Source: Candidatus Fermentibacterales bacterium (lineage in GTDB: Bacteria > Fermentibacterota > Fermentibacteria > Fermentibacterales > JAFGKQ01). Taken from it: a DNA stretch of 11,388 bases. Shown here in pieces: positions 1 through 11,388 of this stretch (the stretch's first letter is position 1; every line of letters begins with the position of its first letter). The stretch covers positions 1-11,388 of the forward strand of contig JAFGKQ010000119.1 of NCBI GenBank assembly GCA_016928495.1. The letters run 5' to 3'. Made by a program: the position numbers and the translations under genes. A model generated the notes under the pieces. The model saw nothing but the letters and a program-made list of their open reading frames with translations, was not told the origin of the DNA and ran no database searches.

Positions 1-660
1 GAGGCCAGTCTCTCGCATAACGGAGTCCTGTTCCTGGATGAGCTCCCGGAGTTCCGCCAGTCCGCCCTCGAAGTCCTGAGACAGCCCATGGAGGACGGCT
101 ACGTGACGATATCAAGAGCCTCGACCTCGACGACCTACCCTGCCAGGTTCATGCTCGCCGCGGCCATGAACCCCTGCCCGTGCGGCTTCATGACTGACGG
201 AAGGAAGCCATGTACCTGCACTGCCCCTCAGATCCAGAAGTACCTGAACAGGATCTCGGGCCCTCTCCTGGACAGGATCGACATCCACATCGAGGTCGCC
301 GGGGTCCGCTACAGCGATCTGAGCGGCTCCTCACCCTCAGGGGTCTCGTCGCTCGAGATGGCAGACCGTGTTCTCGCGGCCCGGAACAGGCAGTCAAGCA
401 GGTTCTCGGGCACCAGGGCGGTATACTGCAATGCCCAGATGACCCCTCGTCAGATCAGGGAGGTCTGCCGGACCTCCCGGGCAGTGTCCTCCCTGCTCGA
501 GGCGGCGATCGACAGGTATGGCTTCTCGGCCAGGGCGTACGACAGGATACTGAAGGTCGCTAGGACTATCGCCGACATCGAGGAGAGCCAGTCGATAGCC
601 GCCGATCACGTAGCGGAGGCGATCCAGTACAGGGCCCTGGACAGGGACTACTGGGCCTGA
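1..660 (+). CDS. comM: ComM/YifB family Mg-chelatase-like AAA+ ATPase, C-terminal part (5' end outside window)
   Basis: The reading frame is open from the first base and ends in TGA at 658-660, giving 219 visible residues of a protein usually about 500 long. The Lon-like N-domain and Walker A therefore lie off the left edge. Visible are the Walker B stretch [10 protein letters not shown] (about 9-18), [11 protein letters not shown], the sensor-1 region [10 protein letters not shown] (about 54-63) with a family-typical cysteine cluster (C59, C61, C71, C73), [15 protein letters not shown] (about 85-99), and the C-terminal Mg_chelatase_C domain with [17 protein letters not shown] (about 176-192). 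In Proteobacteria ComM is a hexameric helicase that drives branch migration during integration of transformed DNA. The widespread homologues in non-competent bacteria have less certain roles. The gene converges on znuB and overlaps its 3' end by 13 bp, leaving no room for an intergenic terminator. Family assignment is firm; the function in this organism is inferred. Confidence 0.96.
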
Positions 661-1484
661 AGGCTCTCCGAAGCCCGCCTCGCCCTTCCCGTCCTCGCCG
701 CGAGCAGCGCCAGGAAGTAGACCAGACCGGAGACCAGGATTATCACGGCGCCCGTGGGAAGGTCGAGGACCCAGGCCAGAGCCAGCCCCGCCAGCATGAA
801 GGCGGCTGAGAGAGCCACCGACAGGATCATCATGGCCCTGACGGTTCTCAGGAACAACCTCGCCACGGAAGCCGGTATCGTCATCATCGCGATTACCATT
901 ATCAGGCCCGCTATCCTCACCAGCATCACCACGCTCAGTGCGGTGAGGCAGACCATGAGCATGAACAGGGCCCTGACCCTGAGTCCGTTGGCGCGCGCGA
1001 ACTCGGGGTCGTAGGAGACCGCTACCAGACGCCTGAACAGAGCTCCGACCAGGGCGAGGATCACCACGTCCAGGGAGGCCATGAGCAGCAGGTCGCTGCG
1101 GGTGACCGAGAGAATGCTGCCGAAGAGGTAGCTCATCAGGTCGACCGCATACCCCGGAGCCAGGCGTATGAAAACGAGGCCGAGCGCCATCCCGATTGCC
1201 CAGAAAGCGGCTATGACCGTGTCGGAGCGCTTCGGGTTGCAGCTCGAGATGGCGCCTATGCCCAGCCCGGAGCCCAGGCTGAACAGCGCTGCACCTGCGA
1301 GAGGGTGGATCCCGACCAGGTAGGACAGGCCGAGGCCCCCGAAGGCCGCGTGAGCGATGCTGCCCGTGAGGGCCGACATGCGGTTGACGACCACCAGGGT
1401 CCCGACGACGCCGCAGGCTATGGAGCCCAGCATCGCGGCAGCGATAGCGTTCTGCATGAACGCGTGGCCGAGCGCCTCCGTCAT
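648..1484 (-). CDS. znuB: Zinc/manganese-type ABC transporter permease (ZnuB-like, ABC-3 family)
   Basis: This 278-residue polytopic membrane protein has about eight hydrophobic segments and the ABC-3 family layout: an N-terminal region like [20 protein letters not shown], then [20 protein letters not shown], then the cytoplasmic coupling region [15 protein letters not shown], then a long [15 protein letters not shown] segment. It would form the inner-membrane channel through which the metal delivered by ZnuA passes, powered by ZnuC. The frame stays open to an ATG at 1550, which would overlap znuC by 56 bp. The ATG at 1484 is preferred because a GAGG Shine-Dalgarno (1496-1493) lies 8 nt upstream and overlaps the znuC stop, and because the family N-terminus begins here. 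It is the last gene of the znuA-znuC-znuB operon, with a 10-nt gap after znuC. Metal specificity (Zn versus Mn or Fe) cannot be proven from the permease alone. Confidence 0.93.
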
Positions 1485-1497
1485 CCGCCCTTCCTCA
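1485..1497 (-). promoter_or_regulatory. Shine-Dalgarno of znuB overlapping the znuC stop
   Basis: On the minus strand, TGA of znuC (1497-1495) is embedded in TGAGGAAGGGCGG, followed at once by the ATG at 1484. The GAGG core sits 8 nt before the ATG. This decides the start in favour of 1484 over the upstream in-frame ATG at 1550, and suggests translational coupling of permease to ATPase. Confidence 0.7.
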
Positions 1498-2316
1498 CTG
1501 ATCGTCCGCAGAGCGGCTGTGAGTCCCGAGGACCCTGTGAGGAACGCCATGCGTGATCAGATCCACCGGGCAGCCGTATGCCCTCGCGAGGTCCGCCTCG
1601 AGGAGCTTTTCCCCGTGCCGGAAGAGCTGGACGTTCATGCAGGCTATGCTCTTGATCTGAGTCGACACGGCTCCGACGTCGTGCGTCACCATCAGGATGG
1701 TCACGCCGCTCTCGTTGAGCTCGTGAAAGATGGTGTAGACGCTGTCCTGGCTCGCGCTATCGACGCTGGCAACCGGCTCGTCGAGCAGGAGCAGCCGGGG
1801 GCTGCCGACCAGCGCCCTGGCGATGAGCATCCTCTGCCGCTGTCCGCCCGAGAGGGAGGAGACGCTCTCAGAGGCGAGCTCGGAGATGCCGAGACGGGAC
1901 ATCATCTCGAGGGCGGTCTCTCTGTCTCTTCGCCTGCCTCCTCGCGGGCCGCCGTGCCCTATCCTGCCCATGAGCACGACCTCGAGGACGGAGGCCGGGA
2001 AGTCCCCTGCCGAGGTAGTGAGCTGAGGCACGTATCCAACGAGGCTAAGGGCCTGCGAGGGGTCCCTGCCGAAGACCCTGACGCTGCCGCTCGAAGGCCT
2101 GACCAGCCCGAGTATCAGCCGGAGGAGAGTGGTCTTGCCGCCTCCGTTCGGGCCCAGTATCGCGATGTAGTCACCCTGCTCCACGCGGAGATCCACGTCC
2201 CTCAGGACCTGGTGGCCGGCTCCGGCGGACGCGAGGGAACCATACTGGAAGGAGACCTCTCTCAGCAGAACGGCGGGAGCGCCCCCGGAAAGGTCCTCGC
2301 GGGCCGGCCCCGTCAT
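1495..2316 (-). CDS. znuC: Zinc-type ABC transporter ATP-binding protein (ZnuC-like)
   Basis: This 273-residue ABC ATPase has every catalytic motif intact: Walker A GPNGGGKT (55-62), Q-loop Q98 in YVPQ, signature LSGGQ (155-159), Walker B LLLLDEP (175-181) and H-loop H212 in VTHD. The segment YVPQLTTSAGDFPASVLEVVLMGR is typical of the Znu/Mnt metal-importer subfamily. So is the C-terminal CPVDLITHGVPHRVLGTH, a histidine-containing tail after the nucleotide-binding domain. It would dimerise on the cytoplasmic face of ZnuB and couple ATP hydrolysis to metal import. The ATG at 2316 is separated from the znuA stop (2320-2318) by a single base (TGA-C-ATG), and a GGGGAG lies about 10 nt upstream inside znuA, so the two genes are very probably translationally coupled. 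It has a normal length for the family and shows no sign of decay. Confidence 0.95.
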   Translation of the reverse strand: MTGPAREDLSGGAPAVLLREVSFQYGSLASAGAGHQVLRDVDLRVEQGDYIAILGPNGGGKTTLLRLILGLVRPSSGSVRVFGRDPSQALSLVGYVPQLTTSAGDFPASVLEVVLMGRIGHGGPRGGRRRDRETALEMMSRLGISELASESVSSLSGGQRQRMLIARALVGSPRLLLLDEPVASVDSASQDSVYTIFHELNESGVTILMVTHDVGAVSTQIKSIACMNVQLFRHGEKLLEADLARAYGCPVDLITHGVPHRVLGTHSRSADDQ

Positions 2317-2317
2317 G

Positions 2318-3265
2318 TCAGAGGTTCTCCCCGAGCACTCTCGCGACCTCCAGCAGGTTCTCGGCCCAGTCCTCCGCGAGGGGGTCTATGGTTATCAGAT
2401 CGATTCCCAGCTCGGATGCGATGCGCTCCGCGGGTCTGGCGTCGAACTGAGGCTGCACGAACAGGGCGCGGATGCCCAGGGAGTCGGCAACCTCGAGCCA
2501 GCGACCCATTGCCGATGGTGACGGCTCGCTCCCTCCGGACTCCAGCGGGAGCTGCAGCAGGCCGAACTCGTCCGCAAAGTAGCCCCATGAGGGGTGGTAG
2601 ACTGCAAAGGTCCTTCCGCGCACAGGCTCGAGCACTGCCGAAATCGCGGCCTCGAGGGAGTCCAGCTCCCGCTCGAACTCGTCGAGAGCGAGAAGGTATG
2701 AACCCTCACCCTCGGGGTCCAGAGCCACGAGCGTCCGGGTCACTACCACCGCCTGGCTCTCGACCAGGGCGGGAGAGAGCCAGACGTGGGGATCGGGCAT
2801 GCCCCCGTGGTCGTGCTCGCCGTCCGGGGAACCGGCGCTTTCCGGTCCGTCGGAGCTCCACCGCTCGATGCTCCTCCGATCGATGCCCGAGTGGGTCGGG
2901 ACGATAGCCAGCCCGGGGCTGGCCGAGGCTATCCTCGGGACCCAGGCCTGCTCGAACGGGACGCCGATCGTGAAGTAGACGTCGGCACGGGAGACCGTTG
3001 CGATGTCGCCGGGGGTGGGCTCGTAGGTCGCAGGGCTGTGGCCCGGGCTCACCAGCACGTGCACGGATCCGGTCCTTCCGGCGCCGAGGCGTTCGACGAA
3101 GTACCTCTGGGGCAACAGGCTGACCACGACCTCAACGGGGCGGTCGCGGGCATCCCGCGATCGGGCATCTTCCCCGGGCACCCTTCCGCATCCGGCGTGG
3201 ATGAGCAGTGACGCACCGGTGAGAAGAAGAACCGGGCACCTTCGGGACGACTCGCAGCCGCGCAT
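2318..3265 (-). CDS. znuA: Periplasmic metal-binding protein of the zinc ABC transporter (ZnuA-like, cluster A-I), probable lipoprotein
   Basis: This 315-residue solute-binding protein begins with a basic n-region and a hydrophobic stretch ending in LLIHAGC (C26), a plausible though imperfect lipobox that would anchor it to a membrane. Family landmarks are SPGHSPATYEPTP (73-85), ADVYFTIGVPFEQAW (94-108), a short acidic/histidine insert GEHDHGG (149-155), DPHVWLSP (158-165), YHPSWGYFADEFGL (223-236) and IDPLAEDW (293-300). H160, H224 and D294 fall at the expected metal-ligand places. The usual first ligand (SPHxYE) is alanine here, and H76 lies three residues earlier. The ATG at 3265 was chosen because AAGGAG (3279-3274) stands 8 nt upstream and a signal sequence begins there. 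The open frame upstream to 3514 runs antisense to yggS and lacks any such signal. It is the first gene of znuACB. Zinc is the likeliest substrate; manganese is the alternative. Confidence 0.93.
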   Translation of the reverse strand: MRGCESSRRCPVLLLTGASLLIHAGCGRVPGEDARSRDARDRPVEVVVSLLPQRYFVERLGAGRTGSVHVLVSPGHSPATYEPTPGDIATVSRADVYFTIGVPFEQAWVPRIASASPGLAIVPTHSGIDRRSIERWSSDGPESAGSPDGEHDHGGMPDPHVWLSPALVESQAVVVTRTLVALDPEGEGSYLLALDEFERELDSLEAAISAVLEPVRGRTFAVYHPSWGYFADEFGLLQLPLESGGSEPSPSAMGRWLEVADSLGIRALFVQPQFDARPAERIASELGIDLITIDPLAEDWAENLLEVARVLGENL

Positions 3266-3388
3266 GGGGTCTGCTCCTTCCGCAGACTGGCTTGCCTCTC
3301 TTGTCAGAGTGCAAGAATACTGCAGGCCGTCTTCCGGTGCCAGGCTGCAGGTTTGAGGATGCCCGACGGGCGACCATATTCGGGCATC
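3266..3388. promoter_or_regulatory. Divergent control region between znuA (-) and yggS (+)
   Basis: These 123 bp separate two divergent genes, so promoters in both directions are expected. Toward znuA there is a possible -10, TATTCT, on the minus strand (3319-3314), but no convincing -35. It would leave a leader of about 40 nt carrying the AAGGAG ribosome site. Toward yggS, TTGAGG (3353-3358) and CATATT (3375-3380) are 16 bp apart, but would start transcription almost at the yggS ATG. Two dyads lie here: an imperfect one, CTGCAGgCC (3320-3328) against GGCTGCAG (3343-3350), and a perfect 8-bp pair at 3358-3365 and 3381-3388. They are candidate operators, for example for a metal-responsive repressor. 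No known Zur-box consensus is recognisable. Promoter calls are weak. Confidence 0.4.
3358..3388. repeat. Inverted repeat abutting the yggS start codon
   Basis: GATGCCCG (3358-3365) and CGGGCATC (3381-3388) are perfect 8-bp reverse complements separated by 15 bases. The right arm ends directly before the ATG at 3389. The left arm also starts a smaller palindrome, GCCCG-A-CGGGC (3361-3371), so three related CGGGC/GCCCG units lie within 31 bp and alternative pairings are possible. It could be a protein operator or an RNA hairpin that affects yggS initiation. There is no T-run, so it is not a typical terminator. Confidence 0.5.
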
Positions 3389-4105
3389 ATGGCCGTAACC
3401 GTTGATTCCGTGAGAGAGAATCTCGATCGAGCCCGCGCGGAGATCGGGAGCGCTCTCGGACGCTCCGGCGCGCCCGCCAGGGAGGTCAGGATCATGGCCG
3501 TCACCAAGACCCATCCCCCTGAGGTCGTCCTATCGGTTCTGCGTGCCGGCATCCGCATCATCGGAGAGAACAGGACGAGCGAAGGGGGAAGGAAGGTAGC
3601 GGCCATCGGCCGGAAGGCTGCCGAATGGCACATGATCGGCCCCCTGCACCGGAGCGAGGTCAGGCGCGCGGTCCGCGACTTCGACTGGATAGACTCGATA
3701 GACAGACCCGCTCTGCTGCCGGAGATAGCGTCCCGTCTCGCTTCCAGCGAGAGTCCCGGTGCGGAGGCCGTCCCGGGCATGCTGCTCGAGGTCAACACCT
3801 CCGGCGAGGCCTCCAAGCACGGCCTGGATCCGGACCGATCCAGTCTGGCGGAGGTCCTGGGCAGGGCAGGAGATCTGGGGCTGTCCATCGCGGGGCTGTT
3901 CACCGTCGGGCCCCTGACGAGCGACGAGTCGGAGTCCCGCCGTGCCTTCGCTGCCCTCCGGGAGCTGAGGGACTCTCTGAGAGCCAGCGTCTGCCCCACC
4001 CTGACCGAGCTCTCCATGGGGATGAGCGATGACTTCCATCTCGCGGTCATCGAGGGTGCCACTATCGTCAGGCTCGGAAGGTACCTCCTCGGCGACAGGG
4101 GTTAG
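3389..4105 (+). CDS. yggS: YggS/PLPBP family pyridoxal-phosphate-binding homeostasis protein
   Basis: This 238-residue, single-domain alanine-racemase-like TIM barrel has the length usual for YggS/PROSC proteins. These bind PLP without known catalysis and keep free PLP and amino-acid/keto-acid pools in balance. The PLP lysine is K40 in RIMAVTKTHPPE. Other family landmarks are IIGENR (58-62), EWHMIGPLH (79-87), LLEVNTSGEASKHGL (132-146) and the phosphate-binding C-terminal block LSMGMSDDFHLAVIEGATIVRLGRYLLGDR (208-237). Two normally conserved spots differ: GENR instead of GENY/F, and LHRSEVR where LQ(S/x)NK is usual. The ATG at 3389 best matches the family N-terminus but has no clear Shine-Dalgarno. 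In-frame alternatives are an ATG at 3359 and a TTG at 3353, which would add 10-12 residues. It is divergent from znuA and 116 bp upstream of divIVA, a linkage reminiscent of the Gram-positive ylmE-divIVA cluster. Confidence 0.94.
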   Translation: MAVTVDSVRENLDRARAEIGSALGRSGAPAREVRIMAVTKTHPPEVVLSVLRAGIRIIGENRTSEGGRKVAAIGRKAAEWHMIGPLHRSEVRRAVRDFDWIDSIDRPALLPEIASRLASSESPGAEAVPGMLLEVNTSGEASKHGLDPDRSSLAEVLGRAGDLGLSIAGLFTVGPLTSDESESRRAFAALRELRDSLRASVCPTLTELSMGMSDDFHLAVIEGATIVRLGRYLLGDRG

Positions 4106-4221: not shown

Positions 4222-4785
4222 ATGGACAAGGAACCGGAGAAGAAGAGAAGCGTTCGGATGACGCCGCTGGACATACGCAGACAGCGTTTCCGCAAGGCCA
4301 TGAGGGGATACGATCCTGCCGAGGTAGAGGCTTTCCTCGAGATGCTCGCAGGCGCCTGGGAGGAGCTGACCGATGGCGCGGAGTCCAGGGAGAGGGAGCT
4401 CTCGGTGCTGAGGGCCAGGGCATCGGACTTCGATCGCATGGAGAGCGCCGTGAGGGAGGCGCTCGTCGTCCAGCAGCGGAGCGCCTCGAAGGCCAGGGAG
4501 GATGCGGAGAAGGAGGCCGAGCTGATCGTAATGGACGGCGAGGTCAAGGCCGCCAATCTCGTCAACGAAGCCAGGGAGCGTATGCAGGTCCTCATGGAGA
4601 CCGTGCGCGAGCTTCAGGACAGGAGGATGGCGATCATCGCCCAGATGAGGGCCTTCCTCACCGCGCAGGACAAGATGCTCGAACTGGAGGAAGGCAGGAT
4701 CAGGGAGGAGACCCTGCCCGAAAGGGAGAGGCTCCCCGACGAGGAAGAAGGGGATGGTCCGATCCTCGAGCTATCCGAGCTCTGA
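4222..4785 (+). CDS. divIVA: DivIVA domain protein (coiled-coil polarity/cell-division factor)
   Basis: This 187-residue cytosolic protein opens with the DivIVA lipid-binding signature: MTPLDIRRQRFRKAMRGYDPAEVEAFL (13-39), with the family F23/R24, RGYD (28-31), EV and FL positions all present. A long, charged, heptad-like helix (about residues 45-160) rich in E, R, K, A and L follows, predicted to form a parallel coiled coil. An acidic tail EEEGDGPILELSEL closes the protein. DivIVA proteins bind negatively curved membrane at poles and septa and recruit partners for division, growth or secretion. They are typical of Firmicutes and Actinobacteria but are also found in some Gram-negative phyla. 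It lies behind yggS and 57 bp ahead of porU on the same strand, so cotranscription with the secretion genes is possible. The ATG at 4222 has GGTGG at 4-nt spacing. M13 is a less likely start, since it would begin inside the signature. Confidence 0.9.
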   Translation: MDKEPEKKRSVRMTPLDIRRQRFRKAMRGYDPAEVEAFLEMLAGAWEELTDGAESRERELSVLRARASDFDRMESAVREALVVQQRSASKAREDAEKEAELIVMDGEVKAANLVNEARERMQVLMETVRELQDRRMAIIAQMRAFLTAQDKMLELEEGRIREETLPERERLPDEEEGDGPILELSEL

Positions 4786-4831
4786 GAGCGCTGCCATGTC
4801 TGGAGTCGCGAGCTTCTCGAGACAGTTCTGA

Positions 4832-4845
4832 GAGGAGATCCGTTG
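4832..4845 (+). promoter_or_regulatory. Strong Shine-Dalgarno fixing a TTG start for porU
   Basis: GAGGAG (4832-4837) lies 5 nt before TTG at 4843. The frame starting there immediately encodes a basic residue and a hydrophobic signal-peptide core. No in-frame ATG nearby offers both, so the TTG start is preferred. Confidence 0.65.
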
Positions 4846-7800
4846 CCCCGGTCTTCCCCGCTTCCCCTGGCTCTGATCCTGCTGGTCGCAGGCGCAGCCC
4901 CGGGGAGCTTCGACGGTCCGGTGCCCGGCTTCGCCCCGGCATCCGACGGCAGAACCGCAGACCCGGAAGCCTCTTCGGAGCGCTGTGCGGCTCTGCCAGG
5001 GAGGACTCTCTACAGCTATCCGGTGCCGGAGCTCGTGGCAGTCGGTGGGCTGCCCACCGGGCTGGTCGGCTTCACTGCCCCGGGGTGCGGGCTCGCGAGC
5101 GCTGGCGGCGACGGCAGCTCCAGCGAGCATGTTCTCCTGCCATCCAGGCTGGCATTCTTCTCGGTGCCTTTCGGAGTCAGGGCAGGGCTCTCCGTCACGG
5201 CGAACGGGGTCCAGCGCCTGACCGCAGAAGGCGCAGTGGCCCTCGTCACTCCGACGCCATCGGGAGACCGCTTCACTGCCGCTGCGGACGGCAATCTCCC
5301 GTCGTCATGGGCCGAGCTGGTCAGCGTATCGGACTACAGGGGGATCAGGCTTGCCGCAGTGAGGATCAACCCGGTGATCCTCTCGGCCGACTGGGGCGGG
5401 TTGTGCACTGCCAGAGGGCTCCGGATATCCCTGGACTACGGCGCTGCAGCCGGATCCCCGGTCCGGGCCCCGGGCGAGGAGGCCCGCTTCTACGACCTCC
5501 TGCTCGAGGGCGGCAGCATGGTCTGGCGCTCGACATCCGCGAGGGAGCAGGCGGACAGCCCCTTCTGGGGAAGGCCATGGGCCAGGATACAGGTCGATAC
5601 CACCGGCATCTATAGACTCCGAGGCCACGACGTCCCCTGGGCCGTCGGCCAGTCTGCGTCCGGCCTGGCGCTCTACTGCGGAAGGGGCAGGGAGATGGAC
5701 GAGAGCCGGCCCTGGTCGGACGCCTACTCGCCCGTCCCGGTCAGCATCGCCGTCGATGATGGCGGAGACGGCATCCTGGACGAGGAGGACACGATCCTGT
5801 TCCATGGCCGGGGGCTCTCATGGTGGGAGGCCTCAGCCGACAGCATGCCGGAGCACTACACGCACCGATACGATGAAGAGAACTGCTACTGGCTAACATG
5901 GGGCGGCGAGGGCGGCAGCTTCATGGACACCCTGAGCGGAGCCATAACGGGTGAGCCAGCTCTGCCAGCCGAGCATCTCGGAATGTCACACTTCGAGGTA
6001 GAGGCGGTCTGGATGCTCAACTTCGTTGACAGCGACTGGGTCTGGGACAGGAATTCCGGCTCCGGTACCCAGTGGCTCTACCACCTCTTCGAGTTGCCCG
6101 AGTGCAGTGGAGAGGGCTACGTACGGCTGCTTCTCAGGTCCGAGGACGGCGGCAGGCACGCGATAAGGGTCTACCTGGACCAGGAGATGATAGGCGAGGC
6201 AAGCTGGATCGGCACCTCTCCCTTCGTTCCCGTCTTCCCCTGTTCCACGCTGGAGCAGGGAAGCGCCAGACTGGGCGTGGAGATCATCAGAGAGAGCTCT
6301 TCCGAGACGATCGTGCTGGACTGGTTCGACGTCTTCTACCGGAGACCGAACAACGCGGTCCCCGGCCTCCCTATTCCCCTTGACTCGTGGAACCTCACGG
6401 GGCGGCGCCGTCTGGACTGGGGCGCTCCCCTCGATGACATGCTGGTGGTGGTGACCAGGGGTGACAGCTCCGCCTCCCTGGTCTCGACCGGGCAGGGAGC
6501 CACCTCCTTCGAGCTGGACCTGCCGGAGCCCGGAGGCCGGCTGCTCTACGTGATCTCCGAGGATGACCTGCTCTCACCGCTGAGCATCGAGGAGGCGGCC
6601 CCCGGACGCATCATGGGCACTCTCTCCGGGGCCAGGGCCCTCTACGTGGCGGCCGATCATCTCGCCTCTGACGTACGGCCGCTGGCGGATCGTGACGGCT
6701 GGGGAGAGGTCGTCACCACGACCGAGGTATACGACGAGCTGAACGGCGGGGTCAGGGACCCTCATGCGATAAGGGCCCTCGCAGACCAGGCCGTGTCCTC
6801 GTGGGACCCTGCCCCGACGGACGTCATCCTTGTTGGCTCGGGCCACTACGACCCCCGAGGGCACCAGACCACCAGGATATCCTACATAGAGCCTCTCTTC
6901 ACGTCCGGCGGCTACGTCATGGACGATCTCTTCGGGACGATCTCCGGGGACTCCGTCCTCCCCCAGGTGGCCATCTCACGAATGAGCATCTCGTCAAGGT
7001 CCGAGCTCCAGCTCCTGGTCGGGCTCTCGCTCTCCTACTGGGCCGGGGAGGCTTCCGGAGACTGGCAGGCGAGAGTCATCGGGGCGGCGGATGACGAGAG
7101 GTCCGGAAGCTACAGCCAGGACGAGGTGGTTCATACCCAGGACATGGAGGAGACGCTCGAGGGCTATCTGCCGTCACGCTTCGAGAGCATGAAGCACTAC
7201 CTGATCTTCTATGACTGGGACGAGCTCTGGAACAAGCCCGAGGCCAGGCAGGACCTGAGGGAGCTCTGGAGCGAGGGCGCGCTGCTCTTCCTCTACCTCG
7301 GGCACGGGGGTTTCGACCAGGTTGCGGACGAGGGCCTGATGTACCTCGAGGATGCCGATCTTCTTTCCTGCGGCAGCAGGCTTCCCATCGCCTTCTTCGG
7401 TTCCTGTTCCGTGGGGGAGTTCCACAGCCCGCTCCACTCCTGCCTGGCTCAGGAGGTCACGACCTGCCCCGGAGGAGGAGCGATCGCGGGAATAGGAGCC
7501 ACCGGACCCACGGGAGCCTCGTCCAATGCCAGCCTCATCAGGACCTGGCTCGACCTGATCCTCCCGAGCTCAGCGCCGGACGTGAGCATGGGTCAGGCTC
7601 TGCTCGTCGCGAAGCTGCTCAACGGCTACACGGTCAACGATGCGCAGTACGTCCTCTTCGGGGATGGCAGCATACAACCCGCGGTTCCCTCCGAGTCGGG
7701 CTTCCATCTCGACTGCAGCGGGTTCCATACGGGCGAGCCGGCGGTGATCTCGGGCATCTGCCCCGCCACCGGAGTCGCGACCGTCCAGGCGTTCGAGTCC

Positions 7801-8691
7801 TGCCGTCCGGATACCTACTACACCTTCCGGCAGAGCTACGTCATCGCCTACCTGAGCAAGGGTGCCGCATTCTTCGATGGCTCCGTGACGGCCGATCCGG
7901 CCTTCGAGACTGGCGTGTTCGTTCCGGTCGATGCCGACACCGGGGCGATGGCCAGGCTCCAGTCCTTCTTCTTCGGGAGCGGGATGGTCAGGGCAGCCGC
8001 TGCCTACCCCCTTCTCCTGGACTACGGTTATCCCTCGGGCAGCGACTCTGCGGGCCCCGAGATAGAGCTGTGGCTGGATGGGTTCCGTCACGTGGAGAAC
8101 CCCGTGGTGTCGGGCGAGGTCAGCGTGCGCGCCGAGCTCTCCGACAGCTCCGGCATAGACCTGCTCGGGAACACCGGCCGGCAACTGGCGCTCTACGTTG
8201 ACGGAGAGCCTTCCGACGTATCGTCCTTCTTCAGCTACTACCCGGGAAGCTGGACCACCGGCAGCCTCGAGGTGTCTCTGGGCACCCCCGCCGAGGGAGA
8301 CCACCAGATCGAGCTCCGTGCGAGCGACGGTGTCCTCAACAGGAGCAGCCAGTCGATGGGATTCAGCGTTCTCGAAGGCTCGGGGCTCGAGCTGGACTGC
8401 GTTTTCGTCTATCCCTGCCCCTGCAGCGACACGGCCTGCTTCAGCTGGTTCCTGGGGCAGGACGCGCTGGTGAGCATCGACATCTACACTGTGACCGGAA
8501 GGCGGGTCTTCTCCGCGGGGAACATCGCTGCCGGTACCGGTTATAATCAGTACAAGTGGGACGGCAGGGATAGCGATGGTGACCGTCTCGCGAGCGGGAC
8601 CTATGTGTACGTGCTATCTGCGGAAGCGGTTTCGGTCGGCGGCTCCGGGGGCTCTGCCTCCGAGACCGGGGTTCTGGCCGTGATCAGGTAG
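4843..8691 (+). CDS. porU: PorU-like type IX secretion sortase, C25 (gingipain-type) cysteine peptidase with FlgD-like C-terminal domain
   Basis: This 1282-residue exported protein has a TTG start with GAGGAG 5 nt upstream. A signal peptide is visible (LPLALILLVAGAA, about 7-19). A PorU-type N-terminal region follows, including WARIQVDTTGIYRLRGHDV (246-264) and DDGGDGILDEEDTILFHGRG (305-324). The C25 peptidase domain (about 640-920) shows GGYVMDDLFG with D694/D695, the histidine loop YLGHGG (H821) and the nucleophile loop FGSCSVGEF (C855). The 34-residue His-Cys spacing is close to that of gingipains. GGAIAGIGATG and YVLFGDGS close the domain. A FlgD-like/type-IX C-terminal Ig domain (about 1183-1270) carries VSIDIYTVTGRRV, KWDGRDSDGDRLASGTYVYVL and a terminal hydrophobic strand. 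In Bacteroidota PorU removes the C-terminal signal of cargo proteins and attaches them to surface lipopolysaccharide. PorV follows 62 bp downstream, as expected for a partner. A gingipain-like secreted protease is the alternative, but length and neighbour favour PorU. Confidence 0.85.
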   Translation: MPRSSPLPLALILLVAGAAPGSFDGPVPGFAPASDGRTADPEASSERCAALPGRTLYSYPVPELVAVGGLPTGLVGFTAPGCGLASAGGDGSSSEHVLLPSRLAFFSVPFGVRAGLSVTANGVQRLTAEGAVALVTPTPSGDRFTAAADGNLPSSWAELVSVSDYRGIRLAAVRINPVILSADWGGLCTARGLRISLDYGAAAGSPVRAPGEEARFYDLLLEGGSMVWRSTSAREQADSPFWGRPWARIQVDTTGIYRLRGHDVPWAVGQSASGLALYCGRGREMDESRPWSDAYSPVPVSIAVDDGGDGILDEEDTILFHGRGLSWWEASADSMPEHYTHRYDEENCYWLTWGGEGGSFMDTLSGAITGEPALPAEHLGMSHFEVEAVWMLNFVDSDWVWDRNSGSGTQWLYHLFELPECSGEGYVRLLLRSEDGGRHAIRVYLDQEMIGEASWIGTSPFVPVFPCSTLEQGSARLGVEIIRESSSETIVLDWFDVFYRRPNNAVPGLPIPLDSWNLTGRRRLDWGAPLDDMLVVVTRGDSSASLVSTGQGATSFELDLPEPGGRLLYVISEDDLLSPLSIEEAAPGRIMGTLSGARALYVAADHLASDVRPLADRDGWGEVVTTTEVYDELNGGVRDPHAIRALADQAVSSWDPAPTDVILVGSGHYDPRGHQTTRISYIEPLFTSGGYVMDDLFGTISGDSVLPQVAISRMSISSRSELQLLVGLSLSYWAGEASGDWQARVIGAADDERSGSYSQDEVVHTQDMEETLEGYLPSRFESMKHYLIFYDWDELWNKPEARQDLRELWSEGALLFLYLGHGGFDQVADEGLMYLEDADLLSCGSRLPIAFFGSCSVGEFHSPLHSCLAQEVTTCPGGGAIAGIGATGPTGASSNASLIRTWLDLILPSSAPDVSMGQALLVAKLLNGYTVNDAQYVLFGDGSIQPAVPSESGFHLDCSGFHTGEPAVISGICPATGVATVQAFESCRPDTYYTFRQSYVIAYLSKGAAFFDGSVTADPAFETGVFVPVDADTGAMARLQSFFFGSGMVRAAAAYPLLLDYGYPSGSDSAGPEIELWLDGFRHVENPVVSGEVSVRAELSDSSGIDLLGNTGRQLALYVDGEPSDVSSFFSYYPGSWTTGSLEVSLGTPAEGDHQIELRASDGVLNRSSQSMGFSVLEGSGLELDCVFVYPCPCSDTACFSWFLGQDALVSIDIYTVTGRRVFSAGNIAAGTGYNQYKWDGRDSDGDRLASGTYVYVLSAEAVSVGGSGGSASETGVLAVIR

Positions 8692-8753
8692 GATGCCGAC
8701 AGGCAGCAGCCCCAATACCGGTCTGGCACCGGATGTTATGGAGTGACGAAGAT

Positions 8754-9767
8754 ATGAACTTCTCCCCCGCAGTGCGCTGGCTCCTGGGGCTGGCGGTCTT
8801 CGCGACGACCTCGATGGCCTCGACGGCCAGCGTTATCTGGATGACCATCACCCCCGGCGCCAGGCCGAACGGCATGGGTGAGGCCTTCGTTGCCCTCTCC
8901 GACGATGCAACGGCCTCGTTCTGGAACCCGGCCGGGCTGGCGTTCGTCGAGAAGGAAGGCAACGAGATCACGCTGCAGCACTCCCCCTGGCTGAGGCAGC
9001 TCGCCGACGACCTCTACTTCGAGTACCTCGGCTACGCCAGGTATCTCGAAGGCTGGGGCGGCGTTGGAGGCAACGTCACCTTCATGTCCATGGGAGAGCA
9101 GCAGGAGACGGTCGAGGGCAACCCCGATCCCATCGGCACCTTCTACTCCTATGGCTTTGCCGTGACCGGGGCCTTCGGCACCGAGGTCGCTCCCGGCGTG
9201 GCCGTCGGGCTCGGAGCCAAGTTCATCTACGACCACCTCTACTACGAGGACTCCGGCAAGGGAAGCTCCTTCGCGGTCGACCTGGGCACCGTCTACAGGA
9301 TCCCCATGGACGAGATCGGGCTCGAGGGCCTGGGCCAGGCAGCGATAGGCGCCTCTCTCCAGAATCTGGGTCCGAACATGAGCTACGGGGGAGAGAGCGA
9401 GGGCAATCCTCTGCCGAGGACCGTCAGGCTGGGCATTGCCTACGTTCCCTTCGACACCCGCATGACTCAGCTCAGGTTCGCCGCCGACTACAGCAAGCTG
9501 CTGACCTACGTCGAGGACGGGCTCGGCGAGGAGATCAAGGAGAACAAATGGGGCCTGGGTGCGGAGTACTGGTACTACGACCTCCTGGGCCTCAGGCTCG
9601 GCTACAGCCACGATACCGAGGGAGCCTCGACGATCCACGGCCTGACGTTCGGGGCCGGCGTCCACTACAGCGCTTTCCAGTTCGACATGGCCTTCATACC
9701 CGTGGAGTCGAGCCTTCAGGGCAGCGGCAAGTTCAACCAGAAGTACTCGCTGACGGTGGCCTTCTGA
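8754..9767 (+). CDS. porV: PorV/PorQ family outer-membrane beta-barrel protein of type IX secretion
   Basis: This 337-residue protein has a signal peptide (hydrophobic 8-20, likely cleavage after SMASTA). It then carries the family fingerprint at 32-63: ITPGARPNGMGEAFVALSDD followed by SFWNPAGLA, typical of PorV/PorQ and UPF0164 FadL-like barrels. Alternating amphipathic strands with many Gly and Tyr fill the rest, and the chain ends in SLTVAF, a terminal aromatic strand typical of outer-membrane proteins. In Bacteroidota, PorV binds the C-terminal domain of cargo leaving the Sov translocon and delivers it to PorU. Adjacency to porU makes PorV likelier than PorQ or a general UPF0164 member. 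The ATG at 8754 is chosen because GGAG (8740-8743) precedes it and the signal peptide starts there. The in-frame ATG at 8733 has no ribosome site and would add seven polar residues. The 62-bp gap after porU holds only a 5-bp stem (8718-8732). Confidence 0.88.
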   Translation: MNFSPAVRWLLGLAVFATTSMASTASVIWMTITPGARPNGMGEAFVALSDDATASFWNPAGLAFVEKEGNEITLQHSPWLRQLADDLYFEYLGYARYLEGWGGVGGNVTFMSMGEQQETVEGNPDPIGTFYSYGFAVTGAFGTEVAPGVAVGLGAKFIYDHLYYEDSGKGSSFAVDLGTVYRIPMDEIGLEGLGQAAIGASLQNLGPNMSYGGESEGNPLPRTVRLGIAYVPFDTRMTQLRFAADYSKLLTYVEDGLGEEIKENKWGLGAEYWYYDLLGLRLGYSHDTEGASTIHGLTFGAGVHYSAFQFDMAFIPVESSLQGSGKFNQKYSLTVAF

Positions 9768-9783: not shown

Positions 9784-11388
9784 ATGTCCTCGAGCGGCCC
9801 CGAGCCGGCACCCCTTCGACCGTCGAGTCCCCGCGCGGTTTCTCCGGTTCTCGTCCTGCTGGTGGCGCAGGTCGTGATGCTCGGCCCGCTTGCGCGAGGG
9901 GCGGCCCCCGTGGTTCCCGGCGCCTGTCCCGAGTGGGGTGGGAGCCCTTCTACCGGCATCTCGATCTGGGACCCCGGCTCGAGCGGCGGGCTGGCCAGCC
10001 TGGGGACCGTTGAGGTCTGCGTCCTCAGGGTGGAGTTCCTGGAGGACTTCACGACCCAGACGACCGGCGATGGCAGGTTCGACCTCGAGTCCTCGCCGCC
10101 GCACGACAAAGACTACATCGAAGGGATATGGGAAACCGTCTCCGGGTACTTCGGGGATGTCTCCGGCGGTCAGATGGAGCTTCGCTACACGGTCTTCCCC
10201 GAGCAGCAGACCGCGGCCTACGGTCTGCTGCATCAGATGTCCTGGTATGGCGGAAGAGACGACTGGCTCGAGGGATCATGCATGCTCTTGAGGGATGCCG
10301 TCGAGGCCGCCGATCCGGAGGTGGACTTCAGCCTCTTCGACGTCGTGGTCGTGGTCCATGCCGGCGCCGGCCGTGAAGCGGACATACTGCGCGACAGCCC
10401 TCACGACCTCAGCTCGGTCTTCCTCACGCTCCAGGAGCTCCTGTCGTACCTGCCGGGCCTGGATCCCTACGGCATCGCCACCGATGACGGAGTCTACGTC
10501 CAGGCCGGCTGCATCGTTCCGGAGGAGGAAACCCAGGATGGCTTCGGGCTGGGTGTCATCGGGGTCACTGTCTACGAGTTATGCAGGCAGCTCGGCCTCC
10601 CGGCGCTCTGGAACACCCTGGACGGGGGAGTCGGAATCGGCGCCTGGGGCATAATGGGCTACGGGCAGTGGGTGATGGACGGCTTCTGGCCTCCGGCGCC
10701 CTGCGCCTACTGCAGGGCCAGGCTCGGCTGGATCGCTCCGCAGACGGCTTCCGAAGACGGCACCTGGCCTGTCATCCTCGATGGAACGGTCCTCAGGATC
10801 GATCTGAGCGGCTCCGAGTACTTCCTCGTCGAGAACCGCGTGCGGGATCCGGACGCAGACGGCCTGCCCGGGGAGCATGAGCACGACTTCGGCCTGCCGG
10901 GGAGCGGAGTGCTCGTCTGGCACGTCGACCAGGGCGTCATCGAGTCTCGTGAGCCCTTCGGCGACGTGAACGGGAACCCCGATCACAAGGGAGTGGACCT
11001 CGAGGAGGCGGATGGAATCCAGGACTTCGACTACTCACTGCCCGACGTGTACGGGATCTATGGCAGCGAGTACGATCCCTACTTCCAGGGAGGCTATGCC
11101 TGGCTTCTGGGTCCCGACACGGAGCCCTCGTCGGCAACGAGCTGGGGAGGAAACACCTTCCTGACCCTCGAGATTCTCGACCAGCCGGCGGATACCATGG
11201 ACGTCAGCCTCTCCAGGACGGGCAACCTGGATGGATGGCCCATCAGGACCGGCTCGAAGGCATCCGGGGTGTTGTGTGCCGACTTCGACGGCAACGCCCT
11301 TCCGGATCACCTGATCTGGCTCGATCCCCTGGGGATCATCTGGATCTACGGGACTGACGGGAGCTTCCTGAAGGCCATCCCGGCCGGC
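9784..11388 (+). CDS. Secreted M6-metalloprotease-like protein with a degenerate zinc site (3' end outside window)
   Basis: The frame is open from ATG 9784 to the window edge: 535 residues without a stop. A signal peptide is visible (hydrophobic SPVLVLLVAQVVMLGPLA, about 20-37). The M6/immune-inhibitor-A pattern follows in order: YIEGIWETVSGYFGDVSGG (111-129), VVVVVHAGAGRE (187-198), IGAWGIMGYG (285-294), EYFLVENR (345-352), LPGSGVLVWHVDQG (371-384) and HKGVDLEEADG (401-411). The expected zinc motif HExxHxxGxxD reads YELCRQLGLPA (264-274). Both histidines and the third ligand are lost and only the glutamate remains, so protease activity is doubtful. A CxxC (C307, C310) lies shortly after. From about 495 an FG-GAP/beta-propeller-like repeat begins (CADFDGNALPDHLIW). 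The gene starts 16 bp after porV with only a weak ribosome site, suggesting cotranscription and perhaps type IX export. A C-terminal sorting domain would lie outside the window. Confidence 0.8.
   Translation, partial: MSSSGPEPAPLRPSSPRAVSPVLVLLVAQVVMLGPLARGAAPVVPGACPEWGGSPSTGISIWDPGSSGGLASLGTVEVCVLRVEFLEDFTTQTTGDGRFDLESSPPHDKDYIEGIWETVSGYFGDVSGGQMELRYTVFPEQQTAAYGLLHQMSWYGGRDDWLEGSCMLLRDAVEAADPEVDFSLFDVVVVVHAGAGREADILRDSPHDLSSVFLTLQELLSYLPGLDPYGIATDDGVYVQAGCIVPEEETQDGFGLGVIGVTVYELCRQLGLPALWNTLDGGVGIGAWGIMGYGQWVMDGFWPPAPCAYCRARLGWIAPQTASEDGTWPVILDGTVLRIDLSGSEYFLVENRVRDPDADGLPGEHEHDFGLPGSGVLVWHVDQGVIESREPFGDVNGNPDHKGVDLEEADGIQDFDYSLPDVYGIYGSEYDPYFQGGYAWLLGPDTEPSSATSWGGNTFLTLEILDQPADTMDVSLSRTGNLDGWPIRTGSKASGVLCADFDGNALPDHLIWLDPLGIIWIYGTDGSFLKAIPAG

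Follow-up and report, generated by a model that had tools for sequence, protein, structure and literature searches.

A gene at the end of a type IX secretion locus encodes a protein that carries the conserved signatures of M6 peptidases but reads YELCRQLGLPA where the family motif HExxHxxGxxD is expected. The question raised by this locus is what such a protein is kept for, if it is kept at all. We analyzed the whole window, a stretch of 11,388 nucleotides that forms contig C208 of a Candidatus Fermentibacterales genome, together with homologous loci. Our best explanation, to which we give a probability of roughly 0.65, is that the product is a type IX-secreted pseudoprotease that has retained the M6 body and most likely binds rather than cuts. 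A first-pass annotation had already proposed a secreted pseudoprotease kept for binding or structure. That reading remains the best supported, as the M6 fold, the frame, and the gene linkage are kept while the site is lost, and the loss recurs elsewhere; two accompanying ideas, a clade of its own that conserves YExxR and an altered site built on a CxxC, were not supported. The type IX context, which had gone unnoticed, proved to be the main one.

Zinc ligands are replaced within an open reading frame

The features of the locus are listed in Table 1. The M6-like frame contains no stop up to the contig end, and the flanking M6 signatures and residue numbers of the first-pass annotation, including those of C307 and C310, are correct. 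In the window, the codons of the site are tac gag tta tgc agg cag ctc ggc ctc ccg gcg. Compared with the five nearest relatives, codon 264 has changed from CAC to TAC (one base), codon 268 from CAC to AGG (three bases), codon 274 from GAC to GCG (two bases), and codon 276, that of the next conserved Tyr, from TAC to TGG (two bases), while E265 is kept. The alignment to relatives is gap-free at this position; thus, it is the zinc ligands themselves that have been replaced, and the motif has not simply moved. Since the relatives have HExxH exactly there, the zinc site does not lie elsewhere in the chain either, which removes an objection raised earlier. Moreover, the multi-base changes across codons 264, 268, 274, and 276 rule out a single read error, as had been argued from the sequence. 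A second M6 domain was not found in the source genome, which is 81% complete with 0.4% contamination, so that an intact second copy might still lie in the missing part.

Table 1. Positions of the genes and sites in the window
Feature	Position	Strand	Remark
PorU-like sortase (peptidase C25), FlgD-like CTD	4843..8691	+	PF01364 1.4e-53, NF033707 5.1e-86
PorV-family gene, directly upstream of the M6-like gene	8733..9767	+	NF033709 1.9e-71
M6-like gene (predicted pseudoprotease)	9784..11388	+	open frame, 535 residues, 3' end cut by contig end
Probable Sec signal peptide	9835..9903	+	hydrophobic stretch, about residues 18-40; read from sequence alone
Replaced zinc site YELCRQLGLPA, residues 264-274	10573..10605	+	H264Y, H268R, D274A
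M291 of the conserved IMGYG, kept	10654..10656	+	frequency 1.00 in intact, 0.95 in inactive members
C307 and C310 (CxxC)	10702..10713	+	single Cys at each also in intact relatives

The protein still resembles family M6

To place the protein, we compared it with family profiles and solved structures. Against the M6 domain model TIGR03296, it reaches 69.1 bits (5.7e-19; cut-off 110.8), and against PF05547 (Peptidase_M6), 12.7 bits (cut-off 22); the intact relative L003 passes the latter with 34.1. Against NF052323, it scores 193.6 bits (4.9e-57), with a further 71.9 bits from a probable 3' part described below, both under the cut-off of 600; these values come from two parts of the protein and not from its full length, and the full-length, intact L003 scores 357.8. 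The matches to TIGR03296 and NF052323 mean that the likeness to M6 is not due to chance.

AlphaFold2 modeled the M6 part with low confidence (pLDDT 56, pTM 0.61). When this model was compared by VIA-align, the top two of the chains compared were both the zymogen of immune inhibitor A2 (Z 15.0 and 14.0); entry 4yu5 aligned over 325 residues with a Z of 15.0, an rmsd of 4.2, and 20% identity. The next matches were OgpA (Z 9.8) and ADAM or venom proteases (Z at most 9.3). Because immune inhibitor A2 leads the structural matches, the chain still looks like M6, and the M6 fold appears to be kept. By contrast with immune inhibitor A2, with which it shares the N-terminal domain fold and the conserved signatures, the protein has replaced zinc ligands, followed by a propeller and a type IX sorting domain. 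A sequence search of solved structures gave no real match to the window protein, and plain Foldseek with the low-confidence model gave nothing at E 0.001.

The gene belongs to a conserved type IX locus

The M6-like gene starts 16 bases past porV, which itself follows porU. The PorU-like protein contains the motifs GHGG and GSCS (positions 7300 and 7399), which hold the catalytic His and Cys of family C25. Across 16 related loci, each compared as far as its contig reaches, the order is YggS, DivIVA, PorU, PorV, the M6-like protein, a 229-residue protein, a sorting-domain protein, and a weakly SprA-like protein. Another contig of the same genome, C318 (L027), carries the end of this order on its minus strand: 245 residues without a stop or frameshift correspond to the C-terminal region of the M6-like protein in the relatives and are followed by the same downstream genes. 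Based on this synteny, C318 probably holds the 3' end of the window gene, with about 190 residues missing between the two contigs. In this probable 3' part lie a propeller segment and a sorting domain of the type IX system (TIGR04183, 25.6 bits; cut-off 23); through this synteny-based join, the protein has the type A sorting domain that NF052323 describes. In addition, the source genome encodes the translocon protein SprA (summed score 417 bits) together with about 50 proteins that bear a sorting domain; therefore, the bacterium very probably has a working type IX system.

Among members with enough flanking sequence, porV lies directly upstream in 31 of 34 with an intact site and in 28 of 40 with an inactive one, and, according to the locus-order comparison, porV also adjoins the gene in L015, which is among the three intact exceptions. 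Several of the inactive members that lack an upstream porV have a PorV-like gene downstream. Such an arrangement, with a PorV/PorQ-family gene downstream instead of porV upstream, is seen in L129, L136, L145, L161, L163, L166, and L167, which perhaps represent a different sub-system. NCBIfam numbers its M6i, PorU2-like, and PorV2 models consecutively.

Two other neighbors were observed. The sorting-domain protein two genes downstream of the M6-like gene (L027, positions 4315-6015, minus strand, and the same gene in L002-L018) has a conserved motif, HELVHLIQW...ELWVIENQAQ; a simple pattern found no motif in L153, and the protein had no match to a Pfam peptidase model. Judged by this motif, it is possibly a metallopeptidase, and this HExxH neighbor on C318 might supply proteolysis at the locus. 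An ABC transporter set resembling metal (zinc or manganese) uptake systems (window positions 648-3514, minus strand) adjoins the type IX locus, as it also does in L003, L007, L008, L009, L013, and L014.

A proposed binding role at the cell surface

For the C-terminal half of the relative L002, the model is confident (pLDDT 90) and shows a propeller of about 355 residues and, after it, a beta-sandwich; this half matches propellers with a Z of about 30. PorZ is absent among the structural matches listed for this half. In Porphyromonas, the attachment complex is made up of PorU, PorZ, PorV, and PorQ; PorZ, with two propellers and an uncleaved CTD, brings anionic lipopolysaccharide to the sortase (PMC8545088). 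PorZ from Porphyromonas gingivalis provides a working model for the protein studied here: a non-enzymatic surface protein that has a propeller and a CTD and acts with PorU, PorV, and PorQ. In contrast to PorZ, the protein studied here has one propeller and an M6-like domain, which PorZ lacks, and the sequence likeness between the two is limited to the CTD.

By this analogy, the M6-like protein would be exported by Sec, and its C-terminal sorting domain would then direct it to the type IX translocon for passage across the outer membrane. Once outside, it would act together with the products of the neighboring genes, the PorU sortase and the PorV shuttle, as a predicted scaffold or ligand holder within the PorU-PorV surface machinery. 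There it may stay and, like PorZ, bind a glycan, a peptide, or a partner. The ancestor presumably had the zinc site, which would have been lost in this lineage, with selection continuing to act on the M6 body and the propeller; the ancestor may also have cut something, an ability then given up here. We infer that protease activity is absent, and the role in a surface complex, taken by itself, is put forward tentatively. More broadly, the M6-like protein of porU-porV loci is conceivably, though with more doubt than confidence on our part, a little-described component that belongs to the type IX surface machinery of bacteria other than the model Bacteroidota, mainly structural or ligand-binding, whose ancestral protease was given up several times independently, once in the lineage of the window.

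The strongest competitor is that the protein is ordinary secreted cargo, an inactive adhesin or substrate binder that adjoins porU and porV by chance. About 50 proteins of the genome share the same sorting domain, and propellers and M6 domains are generally found in secreted proteins, as cargo would have it; gene neighborhood alone, moreover, leaves machinery and cargo undistinguished. However, the gene directly follows porV in most members of many families, whether intact or not, and the entire arrangement of the locus is conserved across the order, a persistence unexpected for single cargo genes. We therefore regard cargo as a serious but somewhat unlikely reading.

The site was probably lost separately among intact relatives

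To trace the loss, we examined homologues and trees. Outside the window, 31 of the 33 distinct homologues of the order in which the site is covered have an intact HExxHxxGLPD, so that there is no evidence here of a separate clade that conserves YExxR. The remaining two, which have lost the site, belong to genus g7 (L049, HKLMR; L067, AKLLR). In these g7 members, Glu is changed to Lys and His to Arg, and their loci keep porV upstream (L153, L154). In L074 (G041:C12), pieces of the M6-like gene lie in several frames across about 1.3 kb, and one piece has an intact HEFGH, a state that we read as frameshifts or assembly errors.

The closest relatives of the window protein, at 57-60% identity, are all intact, and the YExxR state occurs in one genome only. 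In trees built without the site columns, the protein groups near L001, L046, L012, L015, and L004, all of which are intact. With the M6 gene alone, the AU test did not reject one loss shared with g7 (p 0.147); with PorU and PorV of the same loci, the grouping needed for a shared loss was rejected (p 0.0096). Two losses within the order are thus likelier. The family extends to other phyla, where it is mostly linked to porV and part intact, part lost. Across 102 rows including these phyla, 61 have the site and 41 have lost it; on a tree rooted on distant M6 paralogues, six losses were counted, one of them a clade of 26 rows, although this quick tree has long branches and the number is rough.

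These comparisons bear on how the protein is classified. Like the members of NF052323 (T9SSA_dep_M6i, 'T9SS-dependent M6-like inactivated metalloprotease', about 1000 residues), it combines an M6-like domain without a working zinc site and a C-terminal type IX sorting domain. In contrast, its scores lie far below the cut-off of that model, and its clade is otherwise mostly intact. Because it sits among mostly intact members, the loss is most likely a separate one, nested among intact relatives and outside the cut-off of NF052323. The inactivated kind has already been named by NCBIfam, and the present case is a separate instance rather than a new kind.

Among open-licence papers, we found none on an M6 protein in a type IX locus, and the type IX machinery of Fermentibacterota and other such lineages has hardly been studied. 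Close relatives that differ in whether the zinc site is intact or dead, in the same gene and at the same place in the type IX locus, provide a clean natural comparison, which makes an enzymatic versus a structural role of the M6-like protein in type IX secretion testable. They also call for caution in naming by homology alone, as neither 'metalloprotease' nor 'inactivated' fits all the orthologues next to porV.

The protein body is conserved when the site is lost

The metal ligands are replaced although nearly all close relatives keep them, which suggests that the protein body matters more than cutting activity. The 31 intact relatives of the order have 122 invariant columns, of which the window protein keeps 110. 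Five of the 12 changed columns fall within residues 260-280, although only 13 of the 122 lie there (p 0.003, with the interval picked around the site). Across phyla, columns conserved in at least 95% of intact members fall in inactive members to 0.22 at H264, 0.12 at E265, 0.39 at H268, and 0.27 at D274, and the next Tyr column falls to 0.49. In contrast, H192, G194, E247, G271, G294, P303, E345, R352, G375, H380, E408, and D431 remain at 0.95-1.00, and most other conserved columns are at 0.8 or above in members without the site, many at 0.95 or above. M291, probably the Met-turn, is also kept. The changed columns common to the window protein and g7 number three (p 0.22) or six (p 0.008) according to how g7 is counted; thus, we make no claim of parallel side changes.

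These data also weigh on whether the gene is decaying, that is, whether the protease ceased to be of use in this lineage, leaving a gene without function that is about to disappear. The restriction of YExxR to one genome would agree with decay, as would the branch of the window protein, the longest among its near relatives (0.52-0.59 versus 0.2-0.4), and its 12 changes at otherwise invariant columns, compared with 1-6 in single intact relatives treated alike. However, neither the 535 residues in the window nor the 245 on C318 contain a stop or frameshift, and nine-tenths of the invariant columns persist. Codon-position differences between the window gene and L001 (0.31/0.27/0.48) resemble those of the intact pair L001-L004 (0.31/0.27/0.49), with third positions near saturation at these distances, and GC3 is 0.84. 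The inactive form of the same gene is, moreover, kept over deep clades elsewhere. Decay is therefore improbable.

Less probable still is an enzyme with an altered site, in which E265 and the new cysteines C243, C267, C307, and C310 would bind metal in another way. E265 is indeed kept, C267 lies within the site helix, and C307 and C310 occur together only in the window protein among the relatives aligned; however, all three ligands are gone, and no inactive relative has the same set of cysteines. In particular, the CxxC was rejected as an altered metal site, since L004, L053, and L069 have Cys at 307 and L009, L013, and L014 have Cys at 310 beside intact zinc sites, and C307 and C310 hence need no role. 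Finally, an assembly or sequencing artefact can be dismissed as highly implausible: the metagenome assembly is fragmented (337 contigs), but eight base changes spread over four codons leave one frame without a frameshift, GC content is even along the window, and the gene order is that of the relatives.
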